Program-made: the position numbers and the translations under genes
Shown here: piece by piece, positions 13,800-35,294 of the stretch
How positions within the stretch are numbered: position 1 is the stretch's first letter
Layout of the letters: each line of letters opens with the position of its first letter
DNA from: a virus
DNA length: 36,067 bases
Virus record (IMG/VR): IMGVR_UViG_3300006638_000012
Location: 1 to 36,067 of that record
Reading direction: 5' to 3' (one strand)
Notes under the pieces: model-generated
Told to the model about the DNA's origin: nothing
The model's input: only the letters and a program-made list of their open reading frames with translations
The model's database searches: none

Positions 13800-14841
13800 T
13801 CAAGTTCTCCTTTATCAATTTCGTAAAATCTTTACGTTTAATTTCACATTCCCAAATACGAATAACTTTGTGACCTGCGTCTTGAATACGTTTAGTAATA
13901 ATTGGATCACGTTTTAATGCACGTAATTGACCAGCATTTGGCATACGTTTTTTAAATAAACACGAATGATAATGCCACCAGCACCCATCTACAAAAATAT
14001 ATACTTTTTTTAAAGAAGCAAAAAAATCAACTGTCGTACCATAGTTATGATATTGTGCTAAAAATTTAACTTTATGTTGTTCTAACCATATTTGAACAGC
14101 GCGTTCTGGTTTTGTACTTTTAAATGGGCTACAGGGATTCCCATATCGAGTACGACAAGTTGTTACTTTTTTAAGAAGAACATCTCGGCGAAGATGTGTT
14201 TTACTAAGTTTCTTTCGCGTTTCTTCTGTACATATGTGCCCCCGATTACCTTCACTTATGCGTTTCTTGTGTTCAGAAGTAAGTTTCTTTCCAAGTTTTG
14301 CAATACGTATTTTTTGACGTGTTGCTCGTGACCGTTTCTGTCCAAGAATTGCGTTAATATGTTTCTGTTTACTTCTTTTCCACGCATCCTTCAAATTTTG
14401 ACGATGTTCTGGTGTAAATTTCTTCCCCAATTTACCTTTGCTTATTCTTTGTCGTTGCGCTTTTGTTCGTTTCTTCCCAATATTCCCATTGCGTATTGCT
14501 TCTATTACATGCGGGTGTCGCTGATGCATCGTATGTTTCAAACATAAACAACCAGACGCACATTCTTTATTTACACGCCCTTTTAGTGCCTTACGTAATT
14601 TCGCCTTTTGCTTTTTAGACATAGGCACACCTAAATTCCACGGCACTCTACCCTTTTGGGCTTCACTCATGTTCCGACGTTGTTCTGGGGTAAGTTTCTT
14701 TTTTGCTTCACTTATTTTATGGCGAGTTGCAAGCGAACGTTTCTTTCCTCTGTTTGCTAACGCAACTTTACGTATGTGTTCCACAGTTTTAAAATGCGTT
14801 TTGCACATACACCCGACCGGACATGATTTGTTTCCAGGCAT
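13789..14841 (-). CDS. Free-standing Vsr-like (EDxHD) homing endonuclease with NUMOD3 repeats
   Basis: The 350-residue protein starts after AAAGGAG. It begins with a Cys-rich GNKSCPVGCMCKTH segment. At least five NUMOD3-type DNA-binding repeats follow (patterns such as GKKRSLATRHKISEAKK, GKKFTPEHRQNLKDAW, GKKLTSEHKKRISEGNRG). A second Cys cluster is CASGCLCLKHTMHQRHP. The last 110 residues are a Vsr-type nuclease: SKPERAVQIWLEQHKVKF, then TVDFFASLKKVYIFVDGCWW, HYHSC and HKVIRIWECEI. The aspartate before the strand, the DGCWWH-x-H-x-C motif and the final WE are those of Vsr mismatch nickases and of EDxHD homing enzymes. No intron boundaries surround it; it separates tail tube from chaperone and overlaps the chaperone start. 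It is a selfish gene that probably cuts the intergenic site in phages lacking it. Nuclease class is confident, target is not known. Confidence 0.85.
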   Translation of the reverse strand: MPGNKSCPVGCMCKTHFKTVEHIRKVALANRGKKRSLATRHKISEAKKKLTPEQRRNMSEAQKGRVPWNLGVPMSKKQKAKLRKALKGRVNKECASGCLCLKHTMHQRHPHVIEAIRNGNIGKKRTKAQRQRISKGKLGKKFTPEHRQNLKDAWKRSKQKHINAILGQKRSRATRQKIRIAKLGKKLTSEHKKRISEGNRGHICTEETRKKLSKTHLRRDVLLKKVTTCRTRYGNPCSPFKSTKPERAVQIWLEQHKVKFLAQYHNYGTTVDFFASLKKVYIFVDGCWWHYHSCLFKKRMPNAGQLRALKRDPIITKRIQDAGHKVIRIWECEIKRKDFTKLIKENLNGI

Positions 14842-15386: not shown

Positions 15387-16739
15387 TTAGTTCAGTAACA
15401 ACGAGAACGTAACATTGATAATTTCTAAGGGGTAAATCGGCATGAAACTCAATGTCACATCAATTGTTCTGGGATCAACGCTGTCTTGAACTACTGTAAT
15501 CGTTCCAATTTTTGTAATGAGTGTATTTGCAATAAGTCCAGTCAAATACGTTTGAATTGTTGTCGCAATTTGTGACGGGGTCTGACTCGTGATTTTTGTT
15601 CCGATATACGTTCTATCAAGCAACGGACGTAATGTTTTCAGAATATAATCTTTGATCAACCTGACGCTGGGAGTAACAGTATTCACGTTGGTCGAATCTG
15701 TGGTAACTCCGTCACGAATCTGTAATCCTCCACCGTTAGCAAATTCAAGAACCATAACACCATTCTGTGACAAATAATTCTTATCGCTATCTAGATAGTT
15801 AAATGTGCTGAGATCACTTGGTCCTACAATCGTTTGACGTGTCAATGGTGTAGCCGCGTCATTAGCAGGATTTGCTACAGCACCTGCAACTGCGGCCGCA
15901 AGATATTGACCTGGCAAGAACACAGTCTGGTTACTTTTGGTCACGGCATCTTGCAAGATCATGTCAAATGCTGGTGGTGCTACCATCCAGAAGCGGTCAA
16001 CCGAATTTAGATTAGCTTTAGCAACAATAGTTGTCGTGGCATCACTAAACCCATCAGATGAAGAAATAAATACGCGTTCATGTTGAGCACCAGGCGCACT
16101 CATGGTCAACGTATGATTGCGCACATATTGAGTCAATGTCGTATTGCATGACTGCGGAACAACCAATAAATCCACTTGCACCGCTTTCATAGCATCAACC
16201 GCTGTTTGGATGTCAGTAACAGCCGATGTCAACGCTTGACTGATAATGATTTGAGGCGCACCATTGCCAAACATCAGATTGGCCGCTACTGTAATGGGCG
16301 TATACACCCCATTATTAAGTTCAAATCCATACGTGTTTCGGATGCTCGCCATATTATTTCCGAAGGTCTGCGGTAAATATTCAGGAGCAAGTTTCTGACG
16401 ATTCCAAGAAACATAATATGTGGATCCTGTCGTCGGCTGTTGTCCAGAACTAAGCCAAGTAATAGAATTTCCAGAAACCGTAAAATCTGTTCCCAAAATA
16501 AACTGAGCCAAATTTGGAACTGTACCAATTGCGGTAACACTCACCAACGTAAACGTACTGACTGGAATAACATCAGTTCCGTTAGCCGTTCCTTTAACCA
16601 CAGGAGTATTGGATACAGGCAACGTATTTGACCCCGTTGCCACCAAGCCAATGGTTCGGAATCCCGCAGGAAGCCCACCTTGTGCTGGATTTGTTGTTTC
16701 TGTAATGTAAACGCCTGGTGGAAGATAGGTAGATGCCAT
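15387..16739 (-). CDS. Tail sheath protein
   Basis: The 450-residue protein begins ASTYLPPGVYITETTNPA, the near-universal 'PGVY+.E' opening of contractile sheaths. It ends with the sheath C-terminal domain: VRLIKDYILKTLRPLLDRTY, then an amphipathic helix (IATTIQTYLTGLIANTLI) and DPRTIDVTLSFMPIYPLEII. These last strands are the donor and acceptor strands that knit neighbouring sheath subunits. The middle contains LPGQYLAAAVAGAVANPAND, matching the 'p....aG..a..d...' region. The Shine-Dalgarno AAGGAG lies 6 bases before the ATG. Length is at the short end for phage sheaths, with one variable insert domain only. With the tube gene it shows that the virion is a myovirus. Confidence 0.93.
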   Translation of the reverse strand: MASTYLPPGVYITETTNPAQGGLPAGFRTIGLVATGSNTLPVSNTPVVKGTANGTDVIPVSTFTLVSVTAIGTVPNLAQFILGTDFTVSGNSITWLSSGQQPTTGSTYYVSWNRQKLAPEYLPQTFGNNMASIRNTYGFELNNGVYTPITVAANLMFGNGAPQIIISQALTSAVTDIQTAVDAMKAVQVDLLVVPQSCNTTLTQYVRNHTLTMSAPGAQHERVFISSSDGFSDATTTIVAKANLNSVDRFWMVAPPAFDMILQDAVTKSNQTVFLPGQYLAAAVAGAVANPANDAATPLTRQTIVGPSDLSTFNYLDSDKNYLSQNGVMVLEFANGGGLQIRDGVTTDSTNVNTVTPSVRLIKDYILKTLRPLLDRTYIGTKITSQTPSQIATTIQTYLTGLIANTLITKIGTITVVQDSVDPRTIDVTLSFMPIYPLEIINVTFSLLLN

Positions 16740-21442: not shown

Positions 21443-24400
21443 TTACCGAAATAACATCATGGACAGAACCGTACGTCTAACCGTTTGTAAATTCTTCTCA
21501 ACACGCTGTTTATGGTTGTCATGCACATCAGAACCCATAAGGGACAACGCATGTTGAAAATGTTTTTCGGCTTGATCATATCGTCCGCAACTCCACAAAA
21601 GTACGCCACAATCGTTCATCGCCATGTGATCTTTAGGATTTAATTCCAATACTTTTTTGTATCGGTTAATGGCTTCTTCGTAATCGCCTACGTGCAACGC
21701 ATGAACACCCGTCGTAAACCAAGCCCTTGGATCATTAGGGCGTTCTTCAATTTGTTTATTGCCTAACGCATAATAATATTTGAACTTATTATCTAAAACG
21801 GTCTGACCCCGTAAATATCCAAAGTGCCACAGTTGACAAGGCGCACGACGAATATCCATAAACGATTTTGTCTTTGCTATTTCAGCATCACCACCATCGG
21901 CTAGAAATTTCGCTTCGCGTTCTTTACGCAATGCAATGAACGAATCGTCTAATTCTTCGTGAACAATACCTGCATATTTAACGGTCGGGTACTGGTTCTT
22001 AAATAACCGACACGTTTCACTGAGTGCCCACTGTGCTTCTTTAACTGAACCCGGATGTTCCAACCAATTTATAATGGGGAATATCCAACCTTCTACACCA
22101 GGTTCTCGAACCATCAGAGACAAATGCGGTAAACTCTCAGGTGGTAATTGTTCATCAGGATCTAACCGAAATATCCAGTCTCCTGTAGCTAACGACAACG
22201 AAAAGTTACGGGCGTCACTAAAATTGTCAGTCCATTTGAACGGGACAACTCTTGCTCCCATCTGTCTAGCAAAGTTCGGCGTGTTATCAGTACACCCAGT
22301 ATCCACACAAATGATTTCGTCAATATGATCACGAACACCTTCAAGACACCGTGCAATCATTTCACCTTCATTGTGAATGAGCATACACAACGAAATCTTA
22401 TGAGTTTCGTCAAATGGAACGAACTTCGCGCCAGTCTCATCATTCACATGCCGATACGCATCACGTGCAAAAATGGTGCCATACGCGGGTCGTGACCAAT
22501 CCGCAGGATCTGCTATCGTTTGCCAGGGAATACCCGATGCTTTAAATTGCGCTACTTCATTTGGAGTTGGATCACCGTAATACAATTTCCAGTAATACTC
22601 TTTCCACTGCCCCAACACCATGTCAAGATTCTTTTCAGTATCAATCTTGGTATACCGTGCATATTTCCCAACCCGATCTTCAGGGCGCACGTTGCCATAA
22701 TGCAAAATCTTAACTAATGACGTTCCCCAATGCTCAGATTGAAACGTCGGATGACTACCTACATGAATAAGAGAACCTGTGCCTTCAATACGAAGACCTG
22801 GTAATGCGCGAAACATACGTCCTTGCCAAAACTTACCCCACAACCCGTCGATACGACGTGTGTTATCACTGTTCCATAACTGAACTATTGGAAACGTCCA
22901 TAACATCACTTCAGGATTTTCAGGATTTGTCAGGTACTCAATTTCAGTTGTGATAGAACTTGTGGGCATTTCATCATGATCAAATAACCAAATCCAATCA
23001 GGATGACGACTGTACGCCATGTCAAGAACCATGTTACGACTATCGGCTTCGGCATAGCCCTTAACGTCGTCCTTATCATCACCAATCAAAACAACTTTTG
23101 AAAATTGAGCACAAATTTCTTTAGTATTATCCGTTGTCAATTTGGACACCGATACCACAATTTCATCAGCAAATGTACTGATGCGTTCTAAGACACGCGG
23201 TAAATACCGTGCCCCGTCTTTGACGCGACATGCCGCTACAACAAATTTCTTTAACCGCCCATCTGGCAACCGTTGCTCAATAGGAACATCTTTTTTAGCA
23301 ACCTCAGCGTCTTTAACACGGGCATCAAAATTGGCTTTGGCCATCTCTTCAAAACCACTATCGGCTGCCGCCCATTTATCAACGTACCGTTTCCGGTTTG
23401 AATGAAACAATCCAGACGCATCCATTTTATTGGTCTGAAATGTCTTGTTCATGTAATGATGTAATAGCGTGGATTGATCTACAGCGTACCGAAACCCTGC
23501 CAAAAAACCGCGAAGACAATTATGAACAAATACCCCACTTTTATCAGAAAATCCGACTGCAAAATTATGATAGGTTTCAACTTCCATATCATAAACATCC
23601 TCAACACCGAATACTTCTACCTGAATAACTTTATGATTCAGAATCGGTGTGGCTAAACTTTTTAGTTTGTTTCTTGTTTCTGCCCCTTTCTTTCCAGCTG
23701 CACTTCTTTCCTCTGGTGTAAGCAAAGCCTTTGCTTTTTTAACCGCTTCTAAAATACGTTTGGAGATAATTTGACGTTCTTCCACAGTACGTAAAGCATT
23801 TTTTTCTTTTGTTTTTTCTACCCCACGTAACACAATAGCCGAACGTTCTTCAGGTGTTAATTTTGCTCTAGCCGCTTTAGCAGAAATAGACTTTTTCTTT
23901 GAAGTTTCAAGAATTTGTTCAGGGGTTCTTTTTGCAAGTGCAGCTTTTACTTTAATAGAAATTAGTTCTCTTGTTTCTTCTGCTTTTGATCCATTCCAAA
24001 ATTCAGCAAGTGTTTTCTTAGACAATTCACTTTGTAATGCTCTATTTTTTGGATCACTGTATTTAGCTATTTGACGCTCAGACAGCATATGATCACTCTC
24101 AGCATATGCTCCGTTCGCTCTTGCTTCTTTTTGTCCCGCTAAAATATTTTGACGATGTTCTTCTGAGAACTTTCTCCCTTTCATTTTGTCCGACACTTTC
24201 TTTCGACGGGCTGAATCTTTCGCTAATTGTGCTGCAAAGGTTCGTCGCCACTCGGTTAATTTTTTACCGTTGGCACTTTCTAAAAATCGTTTTCTACCTT
24301 CATCTCGTTTGATGATTTGCTCTGGTGGAACGCCTAAACTACCATGCAATCGAAGATGATCATCCCCAGTCATTTTAACCAAGTTAGTTGGTAAATTATT

Positions 24401-25480
24401 TATCTTGGTAAAATCTTTATGATGCACTACGTGCGTTTTTGTATTTACATATTTTGTTTCATTGTTGTAATGCTTCCAAAATTCTCTATGTGTGAAATGC
24501 CACTTATCTTCACCAGGAAAGTACATAAATTCATATCCGGGTAAATGTGCTTGATCAAATTTCCGATACAACGGCATCAAACTATCGTTTGGTTTAAGAT
24601 TTTTAGCTTCAACATAACTTCCGTCACGAAGCATCACTTTATGATCTGAGGTGCATCTAAATGACTCGTTGTTATCTAACGTAATCTTAAGTGTTTCTTT
24701 CGTTCCCGTTTTCCAAACTTGGTTTACTTTTCCTGGAATAATCTTTCCTTTTTCATTAATACTATAAACATAAACATTATCTAAAGAACTAAGTTCACTA
24801 AGTTCTTTAATTGTTTTTGTTGATCCGTCAACAAGCGGTATAGGGGTATCATGCGCCACACACAACTCGTTATCTTCCCACATCCCGCCCACAAACCGTT
24901 CATCAAATTCGCCAACGGTGTCAACGAATTTACGTGTCATTAAAAGACACAATCCCACTAAACGAGCCGCTGGCACCCATTGACGTTGATGCACTTGGTG
25001 CCATTCTTGTGCCCATTTATCAAATTCACCAATCGTTTTATAGCCAACAGCAACACCTTGTGTACCACCAGCGGCGTTTGATACAGGACCCACAGCACCA
25101 AGATTCGGAATATTTGAAAACTGCATACATTCAAGCAACTGATACAACCAGTTTTGCGAGAAAAGCAGATCATTGTTTGCCAATGTCACGTATTCCCAAT
25201 CCAATGTCGCTATAGCACGTAATCCAGTGTTCATGCCGCCAGCAAACCCCAGATTGGTTTCGTTGGTCACAACCCGAAAATGTTCAGGGTCATCTTGAAT
25301 CAACTGTTTAAGAAAATCTTTTGTACCGTCAGTAGATCCGTTATCTACAAAGATCACTTCATACAAATTTGCGTGGGTATTACGCTTTAACGTCTCAACA
25401 GCCTGCTTGGTGTATTCCACCGCGTTAAACAATGGAATGATGATAGGAATACGTTTTTTAAGAACTACTTTATTGTTCAT
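21443..25480 (-). CDS. Three-domain family-2 glycosyltransferase with TPR tail, interrupted in frame by an intein
   Basis: I start at the ATG at 25480 (AAGGA 7 bases upstream); the frame extends 48 codons further but overlaps the previous gene. The precursor is 1345 residues; without the intein 897. Domain 1 (residues 10-206 plus 655-700) is a rhamnosyltransferase-type GT2: PIIIPLFNAVEYTK, VDNGSTDGT (45-53), NND (102-104), and WEDNEL|CLRGF at the catalytic-loop 'ED..lc.R' motif. Domain 2 (746-960) has ACRVKDGARYLPRV and WLFDHDEMP. Domain 3 (1028-1220) is a SunS/WaaE-like GT2: CMLIHNEGEMIARCL, VDTGCTDNT, NFSDARNFS, RLDPDE. TPR helices occupy 1251-1320. Acceptor unknown: virion proteins, host surface sugar or modified DNA are all possible. 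All three GT2 domains keep recognisable catalytic motifs. Confidence 0.88.
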   Translation of the reverse strand: MNNKVVLKKRIPIIIPLFNAVEYTKQAVETLKRNTHANLYEVIFVDNGSTDGTKDFLKQLIQDDPEHFRVVTNETNLGFAGGMNTGLRAIATLDWEYVTLANNDLLFSQNWLYQLLECMQFSNIPNLGAVGPVSNAAGGTQGVAVGYKTIGEFDKWAQEWHQVHQRQWVPAARLVGLCLLMTRKFVDTVGEFDERFVGGMWEDNELCVAHDTPIPLVDGSTKTIKELSELSSLDNVYVYSINEKGKIIPGKVNQVWKTGTKETLKITLDNNESFRCTSDHKVMLRDGSYVEAKNLKPNDSLMPLYRKFDQAHLPGYEFMYFPGEDKWHFTHREFWKHYNNETKYVNTKTHVVHHKDFTKINNLPTNLVKMTGDDHLRLHGSLGVPPEQIIKRDEGRKRFLESANGKKLTEWRRTFAAQLAKDSARRKKVSDKMKGRKFSEEHRQNILAGQKEARANGAYAESDHMLSERQIAKYSDPKNRALQSELSKKTLAEFWNGSKAEETRELISIKVKAALAKRTPEQILETSKKKSISAKAARAKLTPEERSAIVLRGVEKTKEKNALRTVEERQIISKRILEAVKKAKALLTPEERSAAGKKGAETRNKLKSLATPILNHKVIQVEVFGVEDVYDMEVETYHNFAVGFSDKSGVFVHNCLRGFLAGFRYAVDQSTLLHHYMNKTFQTNKMDASGLFHSNRKRYVDKWAAADSGFEEMAKANFDARVKDAEVAKKDVPIEQRLPDGRLKKFVVAACRVKDGARYLPRVLERISTFADEIVVSVSKLTTDNTKEICAQFSKVVLIGDDKDDVKGYAEADSRNMVLDMAYSRHPDWIWLFDHDEMPTSSITTEIEYLTNPENPEVMLWTFPIVQLWNSDNTRRIDGLWGKFWQGRMFRALPGLRIEGTGSLIHVGSHPTFQSEHWGTSLVKILHYGNVRPEDRVGKYARYTKIDTEKNLDMVLGQWKEYYWKLYYGDPTPNEVAQFKASGIPWQTIADPADWSRPAYGTIFARDAYRHVNDETGAKFVPFDETHKISLCMLIHNEGEMIARCLEGVRDHIDEIICVDTGCTDNTPNFARQMGARVVPFKWTDNFSDARNFSLSLATGDWIFRLDPDEQLPPESLPHLSLMVREPGVEGWIFPIINWLEHPGSVKEAQWALSETCRLFKNQYPTVKYAGIVHEELDDSFIALRKEREAKFLADGGDAEIAKTKSFMDIRRAPCQLWHFGYLRGQTVLDNKFKYYYALGNKQIEERPNDPRAWFTTGVHALHVGDYEEAINRYKKVLELNPKDHMAMNDCGVLLWSCGRYDQAEKHFQHALSLMGSDVHDNHKQRVEKNLQTVRRTVLSMMLFR
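23519..24862 (-). mobile_element. Intein with HNH endonuclease and NUMOD3-like repeats inside the glycosyltransferase
   Basis: The 448-residue insertion begins with Cys1 (CVAHDTPIPLVDG, block A) and has CTSDHKV (block B, residues 70-76) in the N-terminal Hint half. It ends with VYDMEVETYHNFAVGFS (block F) and GVFVHN (block G) followed by Cys+1. The penultimate His and terminal Asn needed for splicing are present. Between the halves are HVVHHKDFTKINNLP and DHLRLHG (residues 144-173), an HNH nuclease core, then basic repeats of the KGRKFSEEHRQNIL / KLTPEERS type. Removing it restores WEDNEL-CLRGFLAGFR, an uninterrupted GT2 motif. All the splicing residues I can check are present, so it should be active. 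Confidence 0.92.
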
Positions 25481-25520
25481 ATTTTTCCTTTTTCGTTCGA
25501 TTTCGTTTCGGAACAACCAA

Positions 25521-26255
25521 CTACAGCGGTATGTTGTACAGCGTCGAAAATACTCTTGCAAACGGTTCTGCCATTGCCGTGGATCCAAGACCCAACCCAG
25601 AAGGCATATCCGAAAATTTGACAACTTTAAGCAAATCCATCCAATACTTGTTTAACTGATCTATGGCCGCTTGTACTCGCGCACCACGGTCAATTGTCAG
25701 CGCAATGCCTGACACGCCATAACTAAAATCTCGAATAGACACCTGTAATTTAACTTCGAGATACAGGAATATTTGCGCTCCCACTTCAACTGCGACTTCA
25801 TGATATGGAGGCATGTTCTCCAACGAATAATTAGTTACAGGCGCGTACGTATTAACGACGCCCAGTGCGGCTTTAAGCGCGTCTCGAACTGCTGTACGAT
25901 TGGCGTCCATACGCACCGCAATTACTTCAGGAAGAATGCTGTACACCTTATCACGAAGCCGCTGTTCACGTACACTGCACTGAATTCGTGCCAACACCCT
26001 ATTACCTTCAACACCGCCGTTTGGTACATACGTGACGTAATAGAAAAATGACGGATCACCGTTATTATCGGTATACGTCGTCGTGGTATTAGCAGGCCCA
26101 GCGAGAATGTTGTTGATGTAGTTATATGTTCCTGATTCACCCCCAGAACTTGAGTAAATATTAATCGTATAAATCAGATTAACATTTAACCCATTTGGGG
26201 CTTTTACAGGATCATATGGCGGGGGCGCAATCCATTCAATAACTTCTACACTCAA
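25521..26255 (-). CDS. Unknown head/neck-region protein with beta-sandwich N-terminus
   Basis: The 244-residue protein begins in a 4-base overlap with the preceding gene. Residues 1-90 resemble an FN3/Ig domain (APPPYDPVKAPNGLNVNLIY, YTDNNGDPSFFYYVTYVPNG). Residues 95-244 are alpha/beta (REQRLRDKVYSILPEVIAVR, AVRDALKAALGVVNTYAPVT, GVSGIALTIDRGARVQAAID). The middle section 'l...i.......nrtavrdalk.al...+.y.p.tnYs' has the feel of a tail-completion or neck subunit, but no family is secure. It lies in the same tight co-directional cluster as two other unknown proteins downstream of the capsid gene. Confidence 0.5.
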   Translation of the reverse strand: MSVEVIEWIAPPPYDPVKAPNGLNVNLIYTINIYSSSGGESGTYNYINNILAGPANTTTTYTDNNGDPSFFYYVTYVPNGGVEGNRVLARIQCSVREQRLRDKVYSILPEVIAVRMDANRTAVRDALKAALGVVNTYAPVTNYSLENMPPYHEVAVEVGAQIFLYLEVKLQVSIRDFSYGVSGIALTIDRGARVQAAIDQLNKYWMDLLKVVKFSDMPSGLGLGSTAMAEPFARVFSTLYNIPL

Positions 26256-26770
26256 AGTTTTTCCTCGTCTGCATACCCATTTTTCGTTTTATTGTTAATG
26301 GCTACTGTTCCTAAATAAAAGCCGCCGTCGTCACCTTGAACACAACCCACTTTACGCCACACTTTTCCACGTTCATCCCAACCATATAAATGAACATTTT
26401 GTTCACGACGTTCGGGGTCATGGCTCGGGTACACGCCTTCAGGTTCAACTGCACGACGACCACTAATGTTCAGTCCTGAATACCAAACCGTAAAAAAATA
26501 TTTGGTATCAGGACTTGTCTGCGCTTTTACTTCGTCAATAAGACAAATTACGGTATCTACTAATGAACTATCTTGAGCCTTTTCATCCAATGTAAATGCT
26601 GTAACATCAGTAACTTCATTTGTTTTTGCGTTTCGCGCATTGATACGCGGACGTTTTCCAGATAGAATCGGTAAATAATTCCAACAAAGTATAAGTTTAT
26701 TGTCTTTTCGACGAAAAACGCGTACTTTTAATTCGGGTTTCTTTTCAGTGGTATCTACAAGTGACATCAT
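26252..26770 (-). CDS. Conserved-looking unknown protein of the head-neck cluster
   Basis: The 172-residue protein starts in an ATGA overlap with the stop of the gene before it and ends in an overlap with the next, so all three are translationally coupled. It has a charged beta-rich composition (VRVFRRKDNKLILCWNYLPI, TKYFFTVWYSGLNISGRRAV) and a C-terminal HLYGWDERGKVWRKVGCVQG segment. No motif is recognised. Two Met codons at the start (MMSL) are both possible. A structural role is assumed only from place. Confidence 0.5.
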   Translation of the reverse strand: MMSLVDTTEKKPELKVRVFRRKDNKLILCWNYLPILSGKRPRINARNAKTNEVTDVTAFTLDEKAQDSSLVDTVICLIDEVKAQTSPDTKYFFTVWYSGLNISGRRAVEPEGVYPSHDPERREQNVHLYGWDERGKVWRKVGCVQGDDGGFYLGTVAINNKTKNGYADEEKL

Positions 26771-27771
26771 TTCACCGTCGTTCCGAGATTGGCTTCATGA
26801 TCCATACGCTTTAATGCCCGACGCAATTGCGATTTTGCCGCATCTTTAACTTTGCCCGCTCGTGCATAAATAGCAATCTCACGTAAAATTCCAACGTCAT
26901 CACACTTTGTCAAAAACGCACCTTTTTCCTGTGGCGTATACCCAACGGTATACGGTGGATATCCTAAAAACCGTTTCACAATGTCATTAATAGGATGCAT
27001 ACCCGCTGGCGGTTCATTCGGAATATATTCGTCATCAGGCAATTCTGCGTTACGAGATACAGGTTGTGCCGTAACCACTTTAATAGGATCGTTCATTGCC
27101 GAAACTTCTGGCATTGACGTTACAGGCAATGCATCTGAAATCGGGACATTGACAAGTGCTGAAATAACGGGTGATGGTTCAGGTTCAGTAACATCAAACA
27201 TCGTTTCAGGTTCAACAGACCCAAGTTCTGTCTCTGTCTGCCCCGCTGGCAATTTTGGTTTACGCCCACGTTTAGCTGGTGGTGTACTCGGTTTACCTGC
27301 CATCAATGACGCTATGTGCGCTAACTGCGATTGAACCGCTGTAACCGCAGATTCAATACGCGCTAACGCGTCGTTGTCCCCAGAAATACCCTCAAATGGT
27401 GACGCCGGCGTTACTACTGGCTTTGTCGCCATGTGCGCTGGTACAACACGTTGTGGTTGTGGTGCAGGTTCAAACACAATGTCGTCGTCTTCAGCGCGTG
27501 TCGCTGGTCGTGTCGCGCCATTAACCATCGGTGCCGCAGGTGTCTTTACTGTAGACGCCATCGCAAGTCGTGCGGCTTTAGCATCTTCAGGTGAAATAAG
27601 AGCAATTAGCGGGGGTTTCATAGAAACAAATTTCCGAACATCAGAAATTTTGCTGATAGTTTCCAAATCAAAACTATCTGCACTTACCGTTTTTGGATCC
27701 AAGATAAGACCGAGTGCGGTCAAATCCAATGACGAACTGGTTGTGTTCATAATATGTACGTATTGGCTCAT
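26767..27771 (-). CDS. Unknown virion-region protein with long Pro/Ala-rich linker and basic patch
   Basis: I start at the ATG at 27771 (MSQYVHIMNTTSSSLDL) because GGAGATTAT lies directly before it; the longer frame to 27864 would run through the terminator. The protein is 334 residues. The N-terminal 60 residues and the last 80 (NDIVKRFLGYPPYTVGYTPQ, then AIYARAGKVKDAAKSQLRRA) look folded. Between them are Pro/Ala/Thr-rich linkers, a short helical segment (DALARIESAVTAVQSQLAHI), and KRGRKPKLPAG, a basic sequence resembling an AT-hook but lacking the RGRP core. A DNA- or head-interior-associated role is possible but is speculation. First gene after the capsid terminator. Confidence 0.55.
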   Translation of the reverse strand: MSQYVHIMNTTSSSLDLTALGLILDPKTVSADSFDLETISKISDVRKFVSMKPPLIALISPEDAKAARLAMASTVKTPAAPMVNGATRPATRAEDDDIVFEPAPQPQRVVPAHMATKPVVTPASPFEGISGDNDALARIESAVTAVQSQLAHIASLMAGKPSTPPAKRGRKPKLPAGQTETELGSVEPETMFDVTEPEPSPVISALVNVPISDALPVTSMPEVSAMNDPIKVVTAQPVSRNAELPDDEYIPNEPPAGMHPINDIVKRFLGYPPYTVGYTPQEKGAFLTKCDDVGILREIAIYARAGKVKDAAKSQLRRALKRMDHEANLGTTVK

Positions 27772-27815
27772 ATAATCTCCTCTTTCATTTTTCGATTTTT
27801 CATTCGGACAACAGT

Positions 27816-27849
27816 AAAAAGATGTGGAGTGCCGTATACAACACTCCAC
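27816..27849 (-). terminator. Rho-independent terminator
   Basis: On the minus strand GTGGAGTG pairs with CACTCCAC (8 bp, 10-base loop) and is followed two bases later by CTTTTT. It ends the hairpin-rich stretch after the capsid gene and precedes the next gene's ribosome-binding site by about 35 bases. Confidence 0.7.
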
Positions 27850-28058
27850 TTGCAAGAACCCCACAAGGAAGTTCCGCGCCTACGGGCAAAGCCCTATAGG
27901 GAAATAATCCTGTTGAAGCGACCATATTCCAATGGCACTTTTACGTCTTTGTTAAGGCTTTCTCAGGATTCAACAGGCACGACGAGGATCAATAAATTGG
28001 AACGAGTGTGTTTTAAACACTCGAACATCTCTATCTACTCATGGTAGTAGAGGCAAAA
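27850..28058 (-). other. Gene-free hairpin-rich stretch, possible structured RNA
   Basis: No plausible gene lies here. Visible inverted repeats are a stem with one bulge at 28029-28052, a 7-bp stem at 28003-28023 (CGAGTGT/ACACTCG), a long-range 9-bp pair CCTGTTGAA (27977-27969) with TTCAACAGG (27917-27909), and a GGGC-TTT-GCCC hairpin near 27890. With the 8-bp terminator this could be one folded RNA of about 240 nt. No tRNA arms were found and no known RNA family is recognised. Confidence 0.35.
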
Positions 28059-28328: not shown

Positions 28329-31300
28329 TTAGACGATTGTCGCGGTGGCAATGCTGCCGAACACCGTAACTCCGACATTTTCGTATACGCTAAACATTAC
28401 AACGCGATCAGGTGGATAGTCGACATTTTGTTACTCCATCATATTGATGAAGGACACGGCATTTCTGCGCGTCTCTGCATGTCTCCATGCAGATCGGACT
28501 ATATCATTACCGAAATTACTTTCGGTATTAGGCGTGTAGTCTCTGGGAATTCTTAGCAGAATTGATAAAGTTAACAATTGTCTCTTTAATATTTGGTAAT
28601 TTTAAATCTGATTCAAAAAGAATTAAACAACGAATACCTTCATTTTTGAATTCTTTTATTAAGGTCTTGGCTTCTTTCTTTGTATGAAAATAGCCTAACC
28701 CGCCAAATACTTCAACAACTGCTTTAACTTTTTTATACGGAGTAACAATGAAATCTGGATTACTTGTTTTTGATTTTAACTTAATCCAAACCTTACCATT
28801 GCCAACATATTTCAAATGCTTTATTTTTAGACCAATTACGAAACGTTCTAAAGAAGATGGACGAGTAAAACATCCGATAAAATTCTTTGTTCTCCAAGCA
28901 ACATATCGTTCTGGGTCTGTTCCAAGCATATGGGCAATTGTGGCTTTCATTGAGCGCGAAGTTTTTTGCTGTGTTCTCTTTTTCTTTGCGCCAGTATATG
29001 TTTCAGTCCAATGCGGTTTAACAAGACCTATAGAAGATTGACTTATTCGTTTACGTACTGTTATAGCCTTACGAATTCCATACATCTGTTCATAGGTTTT
29101 CCCTTTTCGCCAAACACTTGAACTTTTACCTATAAACTTTCGGAGTTCGGGACTGTTTCTATAAGTTTCTTTGTTTGTCTCAATAATACGTTCAATGGTT
29201 TCAGACGTATGAGTTAATCCCATACGATTATGCCCATGTTTGAATTTATTATTATCCGCAATAGAACTACCACAACCACACTGACAATGATTCATCGTTA
29301 CCTATTCTACTAAGTCTTTTCTGCTGATTGACCTCGTGTATCATGAATTGTTCCACTTTGGGATCATGATCTTTTGGGGTGTTTCCAGCATATAGCCTAA
29401 TTTTCTACTGATTTTCAGTAGCCCCTCTAGTTCAGGGTTTCACTTCGACATCGTATCTGATCGGGAACCGACCCGCTTGCGCTGGCAACGGCAACACAAA
29501 AAGCGTGTTCGCACCATTCGTAAGCTGGCTCAATCTGTCAGTGACCCAGATTTTCAGTGTTGTTACTCTTCTTGTCGAATAAACGCCAAGAAGGAGTTGG
29601 TCATTTCTGCCAACTTCTTACTATCGCTAGTAAGCTCAGACTGTAACTTCACCCCATTTTCTGTAGGGTGCTTGACATTCAGTCGTTGAGGATTCTTACT
29701 TTCCCAGTCAATCGCAAATGAAAACTGATCATCCAACTTGCGATACTTTTCATATCCAACAAACGCTATTGCGTTATTTGGATATTGAGCACGAAACCTG
29801 TTGTACTTCCACATCGTATCTTCGGTTTCATGCCCCTTGATTTCAACTAACAAATTGTAGCGCGTTAGAAGAATATCTGGGATATAGATTCGGATACCGT
29901 GTTCAGTTTGAATTGGAAATCTTGCTTTTTCGTATTTGTAGTCAAACTGCAATAACTTCAAAATACGACAAAAATTCGCTTCCCAAGTTGACCGACAACC
30001 GTGTCCTAAATCCTGCCTAAAAAATTTCGCATATCCATATTTCTTAGTCAATGATATTTCACGAGTAGCATATTGTAATGCTTGCTTCTCGCTGGCTTTA
30101 GAAACTGTTGGATCTGTGAATTTTGTCAAACCAAAATTCCAAGGTTTTCTCCCTTTTCGAGATTTCGCCGCACATACATAGGAACAATAAAGAACATTCC
30201 GTTGCAGTAACTCATGTGCATAAACTTGAATATCTGATTGACAAATTTTACACTTCACAACAACAGAACATCGCGTAGGAGAACCATCAGCGATATGCTC
30301 TGATTGAGTAACAATATGAAGTGGTTTCGGCATTAGTAAGTCTTTCCTGCGGATTGACTCCGTGTATTGTTCATTTTTACTTTGTTAGAGTAGAACAATC
30401 TTTTGAAGTTATTCCCGCATATAGTCATGTAGTAATTTATCAGATTACTCTGATAACCGCCAAGATTAATTAGCGTTCCACAAACTGGCAAACCAACCAG
30501 ACTCAAGTAAGGCTTGAAAATTTACTTGATCAAGATCTGCTTGTGTCCAAGATCCACGGATTCCACGGAAACCAACTGGTGACATGAGAATGTTCCCCAC
30601 GGCCAATCGGCTGTTTTCCACGTTAGCAAACGCTGCGGCAAGGCCCGCGCGAGTCGTGTTGCTAGACATGTTCGTGTTAAGACCAATAGCTGTCGCTTGT
30701 GTAGAAATCGCTGAGAAAATAACGTCATCTTCCGCAATCTTCAACTCAAACGCCGCTTTGTTTTTTGTACGGTCCAGTGCATTGAACCGACGGATACTGA
30801 TTTCAGGATACTTAATGCTACGGACGGTGGCGATGTCGAATGTTTCCACCTCAACACGGTCACTCCACGACTCAACGGTCGGTGGATTTCCACGAGCACT
30901 AACTTTTGTTGCTGGAACCTCGGTAAAATCTTTATCGTACCAAGCAGGTGCTCCCTGAGGAAGCAGATCTGTTTCCAACAACTTTCTTCCAATCAATGAT
31001 GTTACTCTTAACAGGACGCTAAGGATGTGGACATTTCTGCCACACTCTCATAATTACTTATGAGTCCAGACTATAACTTCACCTTTTTTGAAAGGGCCTG
31101 ACGTTTAGTCGTTACGGGTTCTGGAATTTTTTCCAGTCTTCCCTCGGTATTGTCCTCTTGTCCATAAGTAACAGGGGTAGGAGTTTCACCGATATGGTCA
31201 AGTTTATCGTGGGCAATGAAAGAATTTACCCACGTAGTCGAGCCTCGTTCGGAGGGGCTCCGTCATCATTTTTGTTACTTGCTTTTTGCAAGACTTGGGC

Positions 31301-32132
31301 ATTTCTGCCAAGTTCCCTATGTCTCCATAGGGGTCGGACTATATCATCCTGTAATTACAGGCTCGGCGTATAGTCTCTGAGGATTTTGGATTTGACTTGA
31401 TAGTGGAGCATTTAATTGTCTCAGTGTTGTATACCATGTGTGTTCTTTTTCTCCATAAGGTGTTTTTTTAGACATTGACTGTCTATACGCTATGAAGTCT
31501 TCAACAATTTTCACACGGTCTTTTTTAGATTGAAAGCGAGGTCCCAACATTTTTAAAAAACGTTGGCACCGCAACAATCCCTCTAGACGAACCATTGACC
31601 TTGATCGTTGTCCAGCGACTTTTTGCCAACCTTGTCGCCAATACGCTAATCCTAAGTTTTTAAGAATACGTTCAACATTATCTAAAACTTTAGGGTCTGT
31701 GTTCGTAACACCAATTTCGGGACGATATCGCTGAAGTCGTTCACCTTTTAAGTAACAAGACCGTAATGATAACCATCCTTCTGACTCCCACACTCCCACT
31801 AACCAACCGATATCAAACTCCAAACTTTCCTGCTGATTGTCTGTATTCATTGAATTATCACCTTAAAAGTATCAATGACTTTATCAGATTTTCCAGCATA
31901 CAGCCAAGTTTTATTACGCCATGACGATTTGTCTAGCGTAAGCTACGCGCTTTAACCCGCGTCCCGTAGGATCACGAAACAACTGTGTCACCAACTGCTC
32001 TTTGTCATTAGCTGACAGAGTGCTGCTGGCTTTTTTTGCCACGCCATTACCAGAACCTAGGACTGTTGACAACTCAGCAAGTTTGTTGAGAATCATGTCC
32101 TTTTGGTCGGCACTTAAACGGTAATTTCCCAT
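28329..32132 (-). CDS. Major capsid protein, five exons split by four group I introns
   Basis: Exons, from pairings in the RNA: 32132-31935, 31266-31228, 30993-30472, 29554-29434, 28423-28329. Joined they give a 324-residue protein in one frame: GNYRLSADQKDM... RVAYA | MTEPLRTRLDYVG | IGRKLLETDLLPQGAPAWYD ... WNA | KIWVTDRLSQL ... VEVKP | FDYPPDRVVMFSVY...TATIV. The RLDY..IGRKLL..+.LPQGA..+YDKD run is a pattern I know from phage capsid proteins, and the place after protease-scaffold and decoration genes agrees. I prefer the ATG at 32132 because AAGGAG is 8 bases away; the ATG at 32138 is only 2 bases from it. Unspliced message stops after exon 1 plus six codons (RQIVMA-stop). The 3-prime end of exon 3 is the least certain boundary, as P1 there has a mismatch and P10 is unclear. 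Confidence 0.85.
28424..29433 (-). ncRNA. Group I intron 4 (1010 nt) with a Vsr/EDxHD-like endonuclease gene
   Basis: The 5-prime exon ends CCCT, pairing with GGGG before a 7-bp P2 hairpin (CTACTGA/TCAGTAG). P4 is TGCTGG with TCAGCA. P7 is GACTA with TAGTC inside CAGAGACTACACGCC and GATATAGTCCGATC. The conserved P9 loop GCAGAAATG is closed by GACGCG/CGTGTC. The intron ends in G after AGTAACAAAATG, and the next exon restores the frame (CCC T|TC GAC TAT). Subgroup IA is likely from the P7 region. The open reading frame occupies the loop between P6 and P7. Confidence 0.85.
28528..29295 (-). CDS. Intron 4 homing endonuclease, Vsr/EDxHD-like (I-Bth0305I type)
   Basis: The 255-residue protein starts MNHCQCGCGSSIADNNKFKH followed by GHNRMGLTHTSETIERI, a short Cys cluster and NUMOD-like DNA-binding segment. 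The middle is basic (RKGKTYEQMYGIRKAITVRK). The C-terminal nuclease is SSLERFVIGLKIKHL, then SNPDFIVTPYKKVKAVVEVF followed by GGLGYFHTKKEAKTLIKEFK and RCLILFESDL. This has the PD..hD-E-G-x-H order of the EDxHD/very-short-patch fold. The gene lies in intron 4 and its last codons (SQRLHA) are encoded by the ribozyme core. Shine-Dalgarno is weak (TAGGTAACG). It should cut intronless capsid alleles near the exon 4-5 junction. Confidence 0.75.
   Translation of the reverse strand: MNHCQCGCGSSIADNNKFKHGHNRMGLTHTSETIERIIETNKETYRNSPELRKFIGKSSSVWRKGKTYEQMYGIRKAITVRKRISQSSIGLVKPHWTETYTGAKKKRTQQKTSRSMKATIAHMLGTDPERYVAWRTKNFIGCFTRPSSLERFVIGLKIKHLKYVGNGKVWIKLKSKTSNPDFIVTPYKKVKAVVEVFGGLGYFHTKKEAKTLIKEFKNEGIRCLILFESDLKLPNIKETIVNFINSAKNSQRLHA
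29555..30471 (-). ncRNA. Group I intron 3 (917 nt) with a PD-(D/E)XK endonuclease gene
   Basis: P2 is a perfect 8-bp hairpin TTATCAGA/TCTGATAA with a GTAA tetraloop. P4 is TGCGGG with TCCGCA; P7 is GACTG with CAGTC; the conserved GGCAGAAATGACC loop is closed by GTTGG/CCAAC. The 3-prime end is G in AGTAACAACACTG. For P1 the exon CGCT pairs with GGCG, with a mismatch one base further out. The 5-prime boundary at 30472/30471 is therefore the best fit but not proven. Introns 3 and 4 share sequence before the gene (ATACACG..TCAATC-GCAG-AAAGACTTA). Confidence 0.82.
29563..30333 (-). CDS. Intron 3 homing endonuclease, zinc finger plus PD-(D/E)XK
   Basis: The 256-residue protein carries an N-terminal zinc-binding region: VVKCKICQSDIQVYA, then LYCSYVCAAKSRKGRKPWNF. 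A central segment contains CRSTWEANFCRILKLLQFDY, like other phage intron nucleases ('STWEAN..RiL..l'). The nuclease core is IRIYIPDILLTRYNLLVEIK, with PD, then E-x-K. C-terminal QRLNVKHPTEN and the rest are translated from the ribozyme core. The stop TAA lies within the conserved AGTAAC eight bases before the intron end, so the gene reads across P7, P3, P8 and P9. AGGAAAG lies about 8 bases upstream of the ATG. Confidence 0.8.
   Translation of the reverse strand: MPKPLHIVTQSEHIADGSPTRCSVVVKCKICQSDIQVYAHELLQRNVLYCSYVCAAKSRKGRKPWNFGLTKFTDPTVSKASEKQALQYATREISLTKKYGYAKFFRQDLGHGCRSTWEANFCRILKLLQFDYKYEKARFPIQTEHGIRIYIPDILLTRYNLLVEIKGHETEDTMWKYNRFRAQYPNNAIAFVGYEKYRKLDDQFSFAIDWESKNPQRLNVKHPTENGVKLQSELTSDSKKLAEMTNSFLAFIRQEE
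30994..31227 (-). ncRNA. Group I intron 2 (234 nt), without an open reading frame
   Basis: P1 is fully paired: exon CGTGGGT (31234-31228) with the guide GCCCACG (31214-31208), giving the required U-G wobble at the splice site. P4 is TCGGTG with TACCGA, P7 is GACTA with TAGTC, and GTGTGGCAGAAATGTCCACA is the conserved P9 hairpin. The intron ends in G after AGTAACATCATTG, and the downstream exon reads ATT GGA AGA in frame. The guide is also nearly complementary to the next exon (P10). At 234 nt it is close to the smallest self-splicing size. Confidence 0.9.
31228..31266 (-). other. 39-nt microexon 2 of the capsid gene
   Basis: The exon encodes thirteen residues (MTEPLRTRLDYVG) and lies between two group I introns. 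Its left edge is set by P10: ATGACG (31266-31261) pairs perfectly with CGTCAT (31926-31921) of intron 1. Its right edge is set by P1 of intron 2. It is 39 nt, so frame is kept. Confidence 0.85.
31267..31934 (-). ncRNA. Group I intron 1 (668 nt) with a LAGLIDADG endonuclease gene
   Basis: P1: exon TTACGCT (31941-31935) pairs with guide GGCGTAA (31920-31914) over seven base pairs with the terminal U-G. P10: CGTCAT with exon ATGACG. P3: CTTGGC with GCCGAG. P4: TGCTGG with TCAGCA. P7: GACTATA with TATAGTC. P9: CTTGGCAGAAATGCCCAAG. The intron ends in G after AGTAACAAAAATG. The open reading frame begins before the Q strand of P4 and ends in P8, so parts of the ribozyme core are coding. Confidence 0.92.
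31344..31850 (-). CDS. Intron 1 homing endonuclease, single-motif LAGLIDADG
   Basis: The 168-residue protein starts after AAGGTGATAATTCA and begins MNTDNQQESLEFDIGWLVGV. The motif IGWLVGVWESEGWLSL (residues 14-29) is a LAGLIDADG helix ending in the catalytic glutamate or glycine pair. Only one copy is present, so it should act as a homodimer, as I-CreI does. It continues with YRPEIGVTNTDPKVLDNVER, the typical beta-strand/helix pattern, and RSMVRLEGLLRCQRFLKMLG. The C-terminus (NPQRLYAEPVITG) is encoded by the R/P3/P8 part of the ribozyme. It should target the junction of capsid exons 1 and 2 in intronless relatives. Confidence 0.85.
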   Translation of the reverse strand: MNTDNQQESLEFDIGWLVGVWESEGWLSLRSCYLKGERLQRYRPEIGVTNTDPKVLDNVERILKNLGLAYWRQGWQKVAGQRSRSMVRLEGLLRCQRFLKMLGPRFQSKKDRVKIVEDFIAYRQSMSKKTPYGEKEHTWYTTLRQLNAPLSSQIQNPQRLYAEPVITG

Positions 32133-32144
32133 TGTCATGTCTCC

Positions 32145-32627
32145 TTAAGCACACTCAACAGTAATCTGCATAGGATTACCATTGGCCGGGTTTGCCGGAA
32201 TTTTCAACACGCGACCGACACGAACTGATGTAATCCCGTTCGGGCCAGCACCTGCTGGTAGCACATTAGTCAGAACGCCTGTACCGGGCGTTGCGTAGAT
32301 TTCGTCACCATACGCATAGGTTTTTGTCTGGTCGTACACCTGATAACTAACACCGTTATACACGGACTGTTGAACGGTAGCAATACCACGGCATAACACC
32401 GCGCCATCACCAGATCCATAAATACTGTACTGTCCAGTGACTTCATTAAGTACACCCGATTGATTGGTTTCTTTAATGAGGCCAAGAACACGTGCTGTAT
32501 TTACGGGGTTGTCCAACTTACCCGTGCCGGTGTTTAAATACACTGCAACACCTGCTATAAAGTTCGCCGAGGCATTGGCTGGTAAAACGCCAATTTCGAC
32601 TCCTTTATAATCTACATTCATCGCCAT
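32145..32627 (-). CDS. Head decoration protein candidate
   Basis: The start at 32627 (MAMNVDYKGVEIGVLP) is chosen because AAGGAG is 8 bases upstream; an in-frame ATG at 32648 lacks a Shine-Dalgarno. At 160 residues it is beta-rich with many Gly/Val/Asn (SANFIAGVAVYLNTGTGKLD, GAVLCRGIATVQQSVYNGVS, PNGITSVRVGRVLKIPANPA). This composition, with 'a.aG.av......' and 'vGrvl..p', is typical of capsid decoration/stabilisation proteins sitting between protease and capsid genes. The assignment rests on size, composition and place. The capsid gene follows 13 bases later. Confidence 0.55.
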   Translation of the reverse strand: MAMNVDYKGVEIGVLPANASANFIAGVAVYLNTGTGKLDNPVNTARVLGLIKETNQSGVLNEVTGQYSIYGSGDGAVLCRGIATVQQSVYNGVSYQVYDQTKTYAYGDEIYATPGTGVLTNVLPAGAGPNGITSVRVGRVLKIPANPANGNPMQITVECA

Positions 32628-32648
32628 TTTACTGACTCCTTCATCCAA

Positions 32649-32717: not shown

Positions 32718-35294
32718 CTACCAGCCCGACGCTAGTCTATCTTCTGCGCTTTCGCCAGAAGCGTCAACGTGACCCACAATAGGCACGTCAACGGATTTCA
32801 GGTTCTCAGTTTCTGCTGTTCTTGTGCTCATGCTAGATCGATTGATGATGTTCTTCATCTTTTCGAGAGCGGTCACTTCCAACGCCGACAGTTCCTTCAA
32901 TTGTCGGTCACGCAATGTCGCCGATGCTTTGGCCACTGCGTCTTCGTGATCCAGTCCCCGTTCTTTCAATTCCAAAACTGCACCGATATCAGGAGTAAGA
33001 GCCCCGGCTTCAGCCATACGATTCATAATGGCCTCTACAAGCGCACCTTTCTTTTCTGACTCTTGCTGTTTGCTCACTTTTTCAAGTGTCGCTTTAAGCA
33101 CCCGGTTTTCAGTTTCGAGTTCGGTAGCTTTCAGTTTTAAGGATGCAATACGTTTCGCCCACTGTTCCTGACCGCCCTGACTCAATTCCGCTTTATCAAA
33201 CTGAGCGTAATACTTGATTTGCTCACTACCCAGATTGCCTTTTGGTTTGGCATCGGCATTGGTCGGCATCTGACGAGCAAGCATTTCTTTGTGATTTGTT
33301 GGGTCACTTTGAACGGGCGTCGTGACTTCACGAGCCCATCCTTCTGGTGTACCCGCGATCTTGGCTTTAGGCGTAAGCTGCGCCAACCGAAACTGCGCGG
33401 CGGCCTTGGCAAGCGTCACACGTGTGTTCCACAACTGCGCCAACCGAAGCAAACTGCCACCTTCAATAGTCACAGTCAAAGACCCCGTATTTTTATCTTC
33501 AGCAATAGCCGTAATCTTGCCGCCAATCTGTTTGGCATACTTAGACACGACCTGATTTGGCTGAACAGGTTCGGTACCAGGTTGAAAGTTGTTCTGGTCA
33601 TAGCCTTTCGTTACATCGTATTCCGCAGGCAACTTTTCAACGCCATCCACGTTCTTAACCAGTTTAGATGGTTCCGCGTCTTCTTTACCCTCTTCCTGCT
33701 TATGATCCACTTTACCTTTGGTAATGTCATATTCAGGAACGCCAACTTCAACTTTACCTTTGGCGTTAGACCGTAGTTCACTGGCAATAATCGCCTTTTG
33801 TGTCGCATCATTAAGTAATGACGATGCCACAACACGCGCTTCCATATTACCGCGCCGTGCCGCAAACACACAGGTTTCCAATGATTTCCCAGGAATATAT
33901 CGAATTGTTAATTTGTCAGCCACTTTATTTTCTCCAAGTTTTATTTTAGAATCTGTTTCTGGTTCGCTTTTTCGGGATGTCGTTTTCAAATCCATCAATG
34001 AAAATTTTTCTTTATAATACAGTTCTGCTTCATTCACAAGCACCGGAGTTTCTGTATATGCTCTAGCATATAAGCCAGTCGCATTACCTTCTTTATACAG
34101 TTGAACAATACGGCGACCTGCAACACGGGCACTCTCACACACGCTGTACCCATTACCAAGGTCAAGCGGTGACAATTTGGCATGTTCACTGTCTAATTTG
34201 GCAATACGCGCATCAACAGCCGCGTGTACAGCACTTTCAATAGAGGTATCTGATGCCACACGTGTCTTGCGAGAAAGTTCTTCCCGGACAAGTCGTGTGA
34301 TTTCTTCATCAGGAACTTCTCTTAACACGGTTTCAGCAGGTTTCATCTTTTGAAGCGTCTGCCGAACCTTGTCAATTAAAGCCCGTTCCACCCCCTTTTC
34401 CACCTCATGTTCCACAGTCTTTTCTACCGTACGCCCAAGCGACTCGTCTTTGGGTTCAGGCTTCTTCTGGAACTCAGGCTTCTTTGCAGGAGGTAGTGGC
34501 GGTTTTGGGGCTACAGGCGTTGGCACTTCTTTTGTAGCTGGACCCGCAGGCGGTACTACTGGTGGCGCGGCTACAACAACTTTTGCCGCTTCATATTTCT
34601 CTGCCAAATGAATCATGTGCTCAAATGTTGGAGTCTTAGCGGCATCCACTTTAGCAAGAACTTGTAACGATTTTGCGAGTGGGTCCGCGCCAACCGTTAC
34701 CCAAGAAATCTCATAGAAATTTACGTCATGGTTAATAGCATAAACCTTACGTCCGTTATACTCTTTGCCCATGTAATTACGTAAATGGTCACAATAGTCA
34801 TCGGTACTTGACGCTGTCTTTGCACAAATATTGCATTCACATTGCGCAACTAGTGCTCCCATACTGACATCGGTAGCATACCCTTTAGCAATTTTGTCCG
34901 CGATTGGAAACGATTTATCAATGGCAAGAAGTAATGCCACATAATTAGTTCCTGGCGCATCATGATACGACGCGTCAAGAATAATGCCAACGGCACCATC
35001 TACACAATCACTCTTATGATCTAAATAAACGCCACGTCTAATAAACGTTTTATAGTTCTTACGCAGTTCATCTTCCCCAAACCAATCGCCATTTTGATTA
35101 GCTCCATGATATTCGCCAGCACTAACCGCACGAACACGGACATAAATAAAATCGTCGTCATTAACATCAAAAGCCGCCTGAGTATCAACCGCTTTAGGAT
35201 CTTGACGGATTTGAGCACTAACCACAGATCCTCGCCAATCGGCTAATGATGTGAGTTCTGCCGTTGCTAATGAACCAATTTTAAAAAATGACAT
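32718..35294 (-). CDS. Prohead protease fused to a scaffold-like C-terminus
   Basis: The 858-residue protein has an N-terminal protease of about 215 residues. It contains NQNGDWFGEDELRKNYKTFI, then GVYLDHKSDCVDG (His93), then GYATDVSMGALVAQCECNIC (Ser144), four cysteines (152, 154, 157, 168), and a strand HDVNFYEISWVTVGADPLAK. His and Ser with an acidic partner and the 'E.S.V..gADplA' phrase match phage prohead proteases of the herpesvirus-like serine type. Cysteines suggest a zinc knob, known in related proteins. Then follows a Pro-rich hinge (PAGPATKEVPTPVAPKPPLP), and a charged, helical portion ending in a coiled coil (LKLKATELETENRVLKATLE), the expected make-up of an internal scaffold. 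Fusion of protease and scaffold in one chain occurs in several phages. AAGGAG precedes the ATG by 11 bases. Confidence 0.75.
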   Translation of the reverse strand: MSFFKIGSLATAELTSLADWRGSVVSAQIRQDPKAVDTQAAFDVNDDDFIYVRVRAVSAGEYHGANQNGDWFGEDELRKNYKTFIRRGVYLDHKSDCVDGAVGIILDASYHDAPGTNYVALLLAIDKSFPIADKIAKGYATDVSMGALVAQCECNICAKTASSTDDYCDHLRNYMGKEYNGRKVYAINHDVNFYEISWVTVGADPLAKSLQVLAKVDAAKTPTFEHMIHLAEKYEAAKVVVAAPPVVPPAGPATKEVPTPVAPKPPLPPAKKPEFQKKPEPKDESLGRTVEKTVEHEVEKGVERALIDKVRQTLQKMKPAETVLREVPDEEITRLVREELSRKTRVASDTSIESAVHAAVDARIAKLDSEHAKLSPLDLGNGYSVCESARVAGRRIVQLYKEGNATGLYARAYTETPVLVNEAELYYKEKFSLMDLKTTSRKSEPETDSKIKLGENKVADKLTIRYIPGKSLETCVFAARRGNMEARVVASSLLNDATQKAIIASELRSNAKGKVEVGVPEYDITKGKVDHKQEEGKEDAEPSKLVKNVDGVEKLPAEYDVTKGYDQNNFQPGTEPVQPNQVVSKYAKQIGGKITAIAEDKNTGSLTVTIEGGSLLRLAQLWNTRVTLAKAAAQFRLAQLTPKAKIAGTPEGWAREVTTPVQSDPTNHKEMLARQMPTNADAKPKGNLGSEQIKYYAQFDKAELSQGGQEQWAKRIASLKLKATELETENRVLKATLEKVSKQQESEKKGALVEAIMNRMAEAGALTPDIGAVLELKERGLDHEDAVAKASATLRDRQLKELSALEVTALEKMKNIINRSSMSTRTAETENLKSVDVPIVGHVDASGESAEDRLASGW

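Follow-up and report, generated by a model that had tools for sequence, protein, structure and literature searches.

Introduction

A gene of the Staphylococcus phage Twort reportedly holds three group I introns and undergoes exon skipping, as Landthaler and Shub are said to have described in 1999. Three is also the highest intron number per phage gene that was found in the literature (PMC11878797), with the DNA polymerase and terminase genes of Bastillevirinae containing at most three introns and one internal exon being skipped in TerL of SIOphi (PMC11878797). The surveys of phage introns stress the genes of nucleotide metabolism, DNA polymerase and terminase (PMC12350094, PMC11878797). The capsid-gene introns found in the literature are single (PMC3706429), such as the group I-like intron in the capsid gene of the mycobacteriophage LittleE, for which splicing was established by RT-PCR (PMC3706429), and the capsid intron of Tuc2009, as far as it is cited in the same work (PMC3706429). 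The Jug phages contain many group I introns per genome, with metatranscriptomes showing splicing and terL lying in 2-3 pieces (PMC12363816). Spliceosomal introns with homing-endonuclease genes have entered the capsid genes of mirusviruses (PMC12768974), the intron endonuclease gp210 of PhiPA3 can cripple a co-infecting competitor (PMC11620839), and three LAGLIDADG introns occur in cyanobacterial LSU rRNA genes (PMC1995217).

Gene Structure and Spliced Product

The window, i.e., the whole stretch of DNA analysed, is the complete 36,067-base IMG/VR record IMGVR_UViG_3300006638_000012. The gene structure demonstrated at the sequence level is that of a major capsid gene on the minus strand, present as five open pieces split by four group I introns (Table 1). 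The joined exons come to 975 nt, that is, exactly 324 codons and a stop, and the five exons, four group I introns and single 324-codon frame proposed in the initial annotation are thereby borne out. The spliced product matches the major head protein family PHROG 2522 (E 9.6e-33, residues 5-315), and its identification as the major capsid protein is supported; the phage is assigned to the contractile-tailed relatives of Bacillus phage G. The window contains a contractile-tail module, with the tail sheath at 15387-16739, and a head module on the minus strand. Skipping of exon 2 would stay in frame, since this exon measures 39 nt, and the protein would then lack MTEPLRTRLDYVG, which lies in a conserved region.

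Elsewhere in the window, a glycosyltransferase-TPR protein with an intein (PF14890, residues 262-702) was seen at 21443-25624, and a free-standing NUMOD3 + Vsr nuclease lies between tail genes at 13789-14841 (PF03852, 27.6 bits; TIGR00632, E 4e-11). The N-terminus (10000-10211) of the ORF 7761-10211 has VDFHNKYHEFITNGILVQN, resembling a C-terminal Hint/intein block with no partner.

Table 1. Features of the split capsid gene and its surroundings, in positions of the window except for the last line.
Feature	Position	Strand	Remarks
Protease-like ORF	32718-35294		head module; partial match to head-maturation-protease PHROG
Small ORF in decoration-protein position	32145-32648		head module; precedes capsid gene
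Exon 1	31935..32132	minus	66 codons; ends in GTAGCTTACGCU at the splice site
Group I intron 1	31267..31934	minus	668 nt
Intron 1 internal guide GGCGUAA	31914..31920	minus	P1 with exon UUACGCU, terminal U.G
Intron 1 ORF	31344..31850	minus	168 aa; LAGLIDADG-type, one motif; PF14528, phrog_5046 5e-10
Intron 1 3' core P7-P3'-P8-P7'-P9-P9.1-P9.2	31273..31383	minus	R1 62.3 bits
Exon 2	31228..31266	minus	39 nt; MTEPLRTRLDYVG
Group I intron 2	30994..31227	minus	234 nt; no ORF; RF00028 59.1 bits
Intron 2 internal guide GCCCACG	31208..31214	minus	P1 with exon CGUGGGU
Exon 3	30472..30993	minus	174 codons
Group I intron 3	29555..30471	minus	917 nt
Intron 3 ORF	29563..30333	minus	256 aa; PD-(D/E)XK, T7 endonuclease I type; E118, D153, E164, K166
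Intron 3 3' core	29561..29692	minus	R1 71.5 bits
Exon 4	29434..29554	minus	121 nt; ends in phase 1
Group I intron 4	28424..29433	minus	1010 nt
Intron 4 ORF	28528..29295	minus	255 aa; putative homing endonuclease; CxCGCG...HGHN N-terminal module
Intron 4 3' core	28429..28549	minus	R1 63.2 bits
Exon 5	28329..28423	minus	completes split codon, then 30 codons and stop
ORF on other side of split capsid gene	26767-27864
Nine-intron gene of L099	1637-6745 (IMGVR_UViG_3300004091_000032:4836-9944)

Uninterrupted Homologues and Choice of Junctions

The closest uninterrupted relative, on the record IMGVR_UViG_3300025736_004302 (L007), is 53% identical over residues 5-315 and retains the small ORF preceding the capsid gene. 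It was found by querying with an alignment of the spliced protein and its three nearest annotated relatives, and viral contigs gave no match when the query was only the spliced protein or the decoration-like protein encoded upstream. The gp27 of Bacillus phage G (37% identity to the spliced protein) is one ORF, and the homologues of an uncultured 485-kb phage and of Tunturiibacter phage Tunturi_5 are also continuous across the junctions, with zero gaps at any of the four in a 68-row alignment of the spliced protein and 67 relatives. The initial annotation had named a homologue that does not continue over the junctions as evidence against its gene model, and both L007 and the gap-free phage G protein were found to read through all four.

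The splice-site choice was demonstrated with all in-frame splice pairs lying at most 45 nt from the proposed sites (840-1648 per intron), the products of which were scored against L007 and phage G. The proposed pair, with U closing the 5' exon and G closing the intron, was top-scoring at every intron and uniquely best among the 28-133 in-frame U/G pairs, the ties in score being slides of 1-2 nt without U or G. Conserved residues stand at every junction of the restored full-length protein, and conservation is higher at the insertion sites than at randomly chosen positions (P = 0.02), as is expected of homing targets. No close relative of this capsid gene with introns was found, the covariance model R1 described below detected no intron at the capsid-homologue loci, and no allele pair with and without a given intron was found at high nucleotide identity.

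Ribozyme Cores and Splice-Site Pairing

The four elements are group I introns of one ribozyme lineage, predicted to be self-splicing. The covariance model R1, for which five introns of another phage were the sole source, gave exactly four matches over the 36-kb window, at 62-72 bits and E <= 5e-18 (rough values from a short calibration), with none further to E = 10, and every match stops at a predicted intron 3' end. Across nine introns, 93.4% of the cells in P7, P8, P9 and P9.1 are paired, with double changes in 22 of the 27 pairs; none of 500 shuffles was as high, and 30-36% of the cells were paired when slid. The pairs of P9, a 7-bp stem under four-base loops, and of P9.1, a conserved GCAGAAAUG hairpin, are complete across the nine introns, those of P7 are almost complete, and all introns finish in UAACA(n)G. 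The R1 scores, together with this covariation, uphold the core of P4, P7 and P9 that had been written out for each of the four introns from the sequence.

At all four introns the 5' exon ends in U and the intron in G. The P1 helices of introns 1 and 2, with their terminal U.G, comprise 7 bp and no mismatch (shuffle P 0.0065 and 0.0045), and in intron 1 the CGUCAU just 5' of the guide pairs with the exon 2 start AUGACGG in a P10 of 7 bp, so that the P1 and P10 annotated beforehand for intron 1, and the P1 for intron 2, were recovered. One mismatch each was observed in the P1 of introns 3 and 4, with shuffle P of 0.068, which is not significant alone, and 0.037. Intron 2 alone folds well (z -3.3). 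A search with the Rfam group I model RF00028 had been suggested as a check, and it was positive in part: at the gathering threshold (cmscan) intron 2 alone was reported, at 59.1 bits, while with an E-value threshold introns 4, 3 and 1 reached 46, 29/25 and 28.5/18 bits, below gathering, because the ORFs split the core. Three of the four introns are thus under the Rfam cut-off, and gene callers would give this capsid gene as fragments.

Translational bypass and assembly error were dropped as explanations, the covarying group I cores and the exact U/G boundaries accounting for all four insertions. A pseudogene in a defective phage, with introns that no longer splice, is an extremely improbable reading; it could draw on the imperfect P1 of intron 3 and on the ORFs overlapping the ribozyme cores, but the five exons are open, add up to full length and have conserved residues at every junction, and the four cores keep P9 and P9.1 completely and P7 almost completely in the comparison of nine introns.

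Predicted Intron-Borne Nucleases and Their Free-Standing Relatives

The initial annotation had described three ORF-bearing introns and one bare one, and intron 2 is indeed without an ORF. The three intron ORFs are open at full length and all lie in the P6 loop, extending into the 3' core. That of intron 1 overlaps P4/P5 with its start and P7/P8 with its end, whereas the intron 3 ORF passes through the entire 3' ribozyme core, stopping 8 nt short of the splice site.

A nuclease class is supported by sequence comparison for two of the three ORFs. For intron 1, a LAGLIDADG-type homing endonuclease is probable, just below the cut-off, with 21.2 bits to PF14528 (cut-off 22.5, E 3.5e-4) and 25-29% identity to proteins of LAGLIDADG-like type from other phage loci that contain introns; no PDB match was obtained. 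ORFs of the same type stand before the same ribozyme core at the capsid genes of two other phages (L104 and L100). For intron 3, a PD-(D/E)XK nuclease of the T7-endonuclease-I type is supported by matches to phrog_9019 (1.4e-10) and, under the cut-off of 29.1, to PF05367 (22.8 bits, E 7.7e-5), as well as by weak PDB matches, both to T7 endonuclease I, in which D and ExK are aligned.

Relatives of the intron 3 nuclease were found free-standing at uninterrupted capsid genes. The gp28 of phage G (L001 4967-5899), 30% identical, directly follows the capsid gene, and in a relative of phage G (L008) an intron 3-type nuclease of 36% identity (7744-8760) and a homing-endonuclease-like ORF (6894-7781) lie directly downstream of it. 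The catalytic E, D and ExK, with flanking residues, are invariant in the three sequences (intron 3, gp28 and L008). This nuclease family is thus associated with capsid genes whether or not these carry an intron, which may reflect intronless or collaborative homing.

The intron 4 ORF is a putative homing endonuclease, having in common with the putative homing nuclease L195, a nuclease-like ORF of another intron-bearing phage, a zinc-finger-like N-terminal stretch of 43 residues. Searches of Pfam, PHROGs, NCBIfam and PDB linked it to no nuclease family, and none of the viral contigs, genome contigs, plasmids or phages searched gave a significant relative; in hhalign against seven Vsr/DUF559-like domains it scored below shuffled controls, although a distant member could be missed in this way. 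Its motif PDF...EVFG..H is visible by eye only, and the single-sequence structure prediction has a mean pLDDT of 35.5. Of the three nuclease classes named earlier, LAGLIDADG is probable and PD-(D/E)XK stands; neither the libraries nor hhalign supported the Vsr/EDxHD label given to intron 4. Vsr-type enzymes belong to the PD-(D/E)XK fold, so that three unrelated folds would be an overstatement even with the label right, the count being two.

The Same Intron Type in Other Phages

A match to the intron 3 core led to the record IMGVR_UViG_3300004091_000032 (L099), in which R1 finds nine introns within 4.5 kb, in one gene of PHROG 13692, a family annotated as unknown and, by our reading, capsid-like. 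The introns belong to two subtypes; one carries a DUF559-like nuclease ORF, most are ORF-less, and beyond the last intron lies another such nuclease ORF. The exon pieces joined by hand match PHROG 13692 to the family end (E 7.6e-41), and uninterrupted stretches in two relatives (L117 and L174) align with the separated L099 exons in the same order, which confirms six of the nine joins. In its L099-related gene (5458-9721), L174 (IMGVR_UViG_3300047576_000046) itself has at least five such introns. Partly different sets of introns occur in the L099-related genes of L174, L117, L118 and L131, which offer natural material for the study of intron gain and loss. Similar DUF559-like nucleases were also seen directly after the last intron of two PHROG 13692 genes (L087 3904-4701 and L174 4560-5375).

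With a gene-blind DNA pattern for this intron type, at least 80 loci were collected (the L100-L179 set). Among the matches listed, about 24 of 45 distinct 3' exon proteins of at least 60 aa match nine major-head-protein PHROG families, every representative checked singly matching at most one family; other matches listed are ribonucleotide reductase, tape measure, portal, endolysin and RtcB. A preference of this intron type for capsid genes is accordingly a lead and not a measured enrichment, since the sample is small, the count is among the matches listed and the contigs had already been classed as viral. In Vibrio phage 1.232.O (L090 2447-2583), an unannotated core of this intron type is flanked by the annotated major capsid gene and a gene for an HNH nuclease, and this capsid gene is possibly split.

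No published account of this intron type in the capsid genes of many unrelated phages, with up to nine per gene, was found. The arrangement of four introns had been judged rare or undescribed; no publication of four in one phage gene was found, in keeping with that view, but the IMG/VR contigs with five to nine go against it.

Proposed Origin and Mechanism

It is very probable, on the sequence evidence, that four mobile introns have been stacked by homing into a conserved capsid gene and are self-spliced out of its message. We infer splicing, cutting and homing as follows. The four introns would splice themselves from the late transcript, restoring the 324-codon message; when a relative lacking the intron infects the same cell, each nuclease would cut that relative's capsid gene at the site where its own intron is inserted, the intron would be copied into the cut gene during repair, and one conserved gene would so come to hold several introns. 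Intron 2, the bare one, may be an ORF-losing derivative or may be moved passively.

An unlikely alternative is that the introns still splice but are now inherited vertically, as residents of the gene whose nucleases have degenerated and lost activity after a past phase of homing. One of the four introns is bare, no catalytic domain is recognisable in the intron 4 ORF and the L099 introns are mostly ORF-less, all of which would suit such a state; however, all three ORFs are open at full length and the catalytic residues of the PD-(D/E)XK ORF are intact.

A duplication inside this gene in place of separate invasions is still less probable. All four introns are of one ribozyme lineage, and in a tree from a short alignment intron 1 pairs with intron 4 and intron 2 with intron 3 (supports 0.89 and 0.95), as duplication might have left them. 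However, the 3' cores share only 49-66% identity pairwise, no more than with the introns of another phage, the pair of introns 2 and 3 groups in the same short alignment with the L099 introns B and G and not with introns 1 and 4, and the three ORFs are of different families; the low core identity and the grouping with L099 favour separate invasions, as far as a short alignment allows. Beyond the stacking by homing proposed here, it is possible, though on balance doubtful, that a capsid-specialised lineage exists, spread over many unrelated families with up to nine introns per gene, swapping nucleases and accompanied by free ones, for which the capsid gene would serve as an arena of competition.

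Genes for the principal virion protein normally rank with those most strongly expressed, and here the capsid needs all four introns to be removed efficiently. The four introns in this capsid gene, together with the recurrence of the lineage in the capsid genes of many phages, raise two testable questions. One is whether the nucleases of the introns serve as weapons that target the capsid gene of relatives in the same cell; the other is how several sister ribozymes can share a transcript and escape mis-pairing and exon skipping.

Comparison with Known Systems

The component parts of this locus are of known types, and a stack of at least four such introns in one gene is not unique. Twort is similar in that one of its genes holds several group I introns; these number three, and the gene is presumably not that of the capsid. 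The Bastillevirinae likewise combine multiple introns and different homing nucleases in one gene, although with three at most and in replication and packaging genes (PMC11878797). LittleE shares the major capsid gene and a LAGLIDADG-like ORF, whereas its intron is single and the ORF lies on the opposite strand (PMC3706429). The Jug phages differ in the genes affected, the excerpt of that report naming terL, nrdD and DNA polymerase and no capsid example (PMC12363816). An intron-encoded nuclease in an essential phage gene is also present in PhiPA3, but gp210 is an HNH enzyme from a single intron of an RNA polymerase gene (PMC11620839), and the cyanobacterial LSU rRNA genes, which have several HEG-bearing group I introns, are cellular rRNA genes with one nuclease family (PMC1995217). 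In mirusviruses the HK97-type capsid gene is also a preferred target, although of spliceosomal introns and in eukaryotic viruses (PMC12768974). L099 and L174 have the same ribozyme lineage stacked in one gene, differing in intron number (nine and at least five), in the PHROG 13692 gene that is interrupted and in the DUF559-like nucleases.
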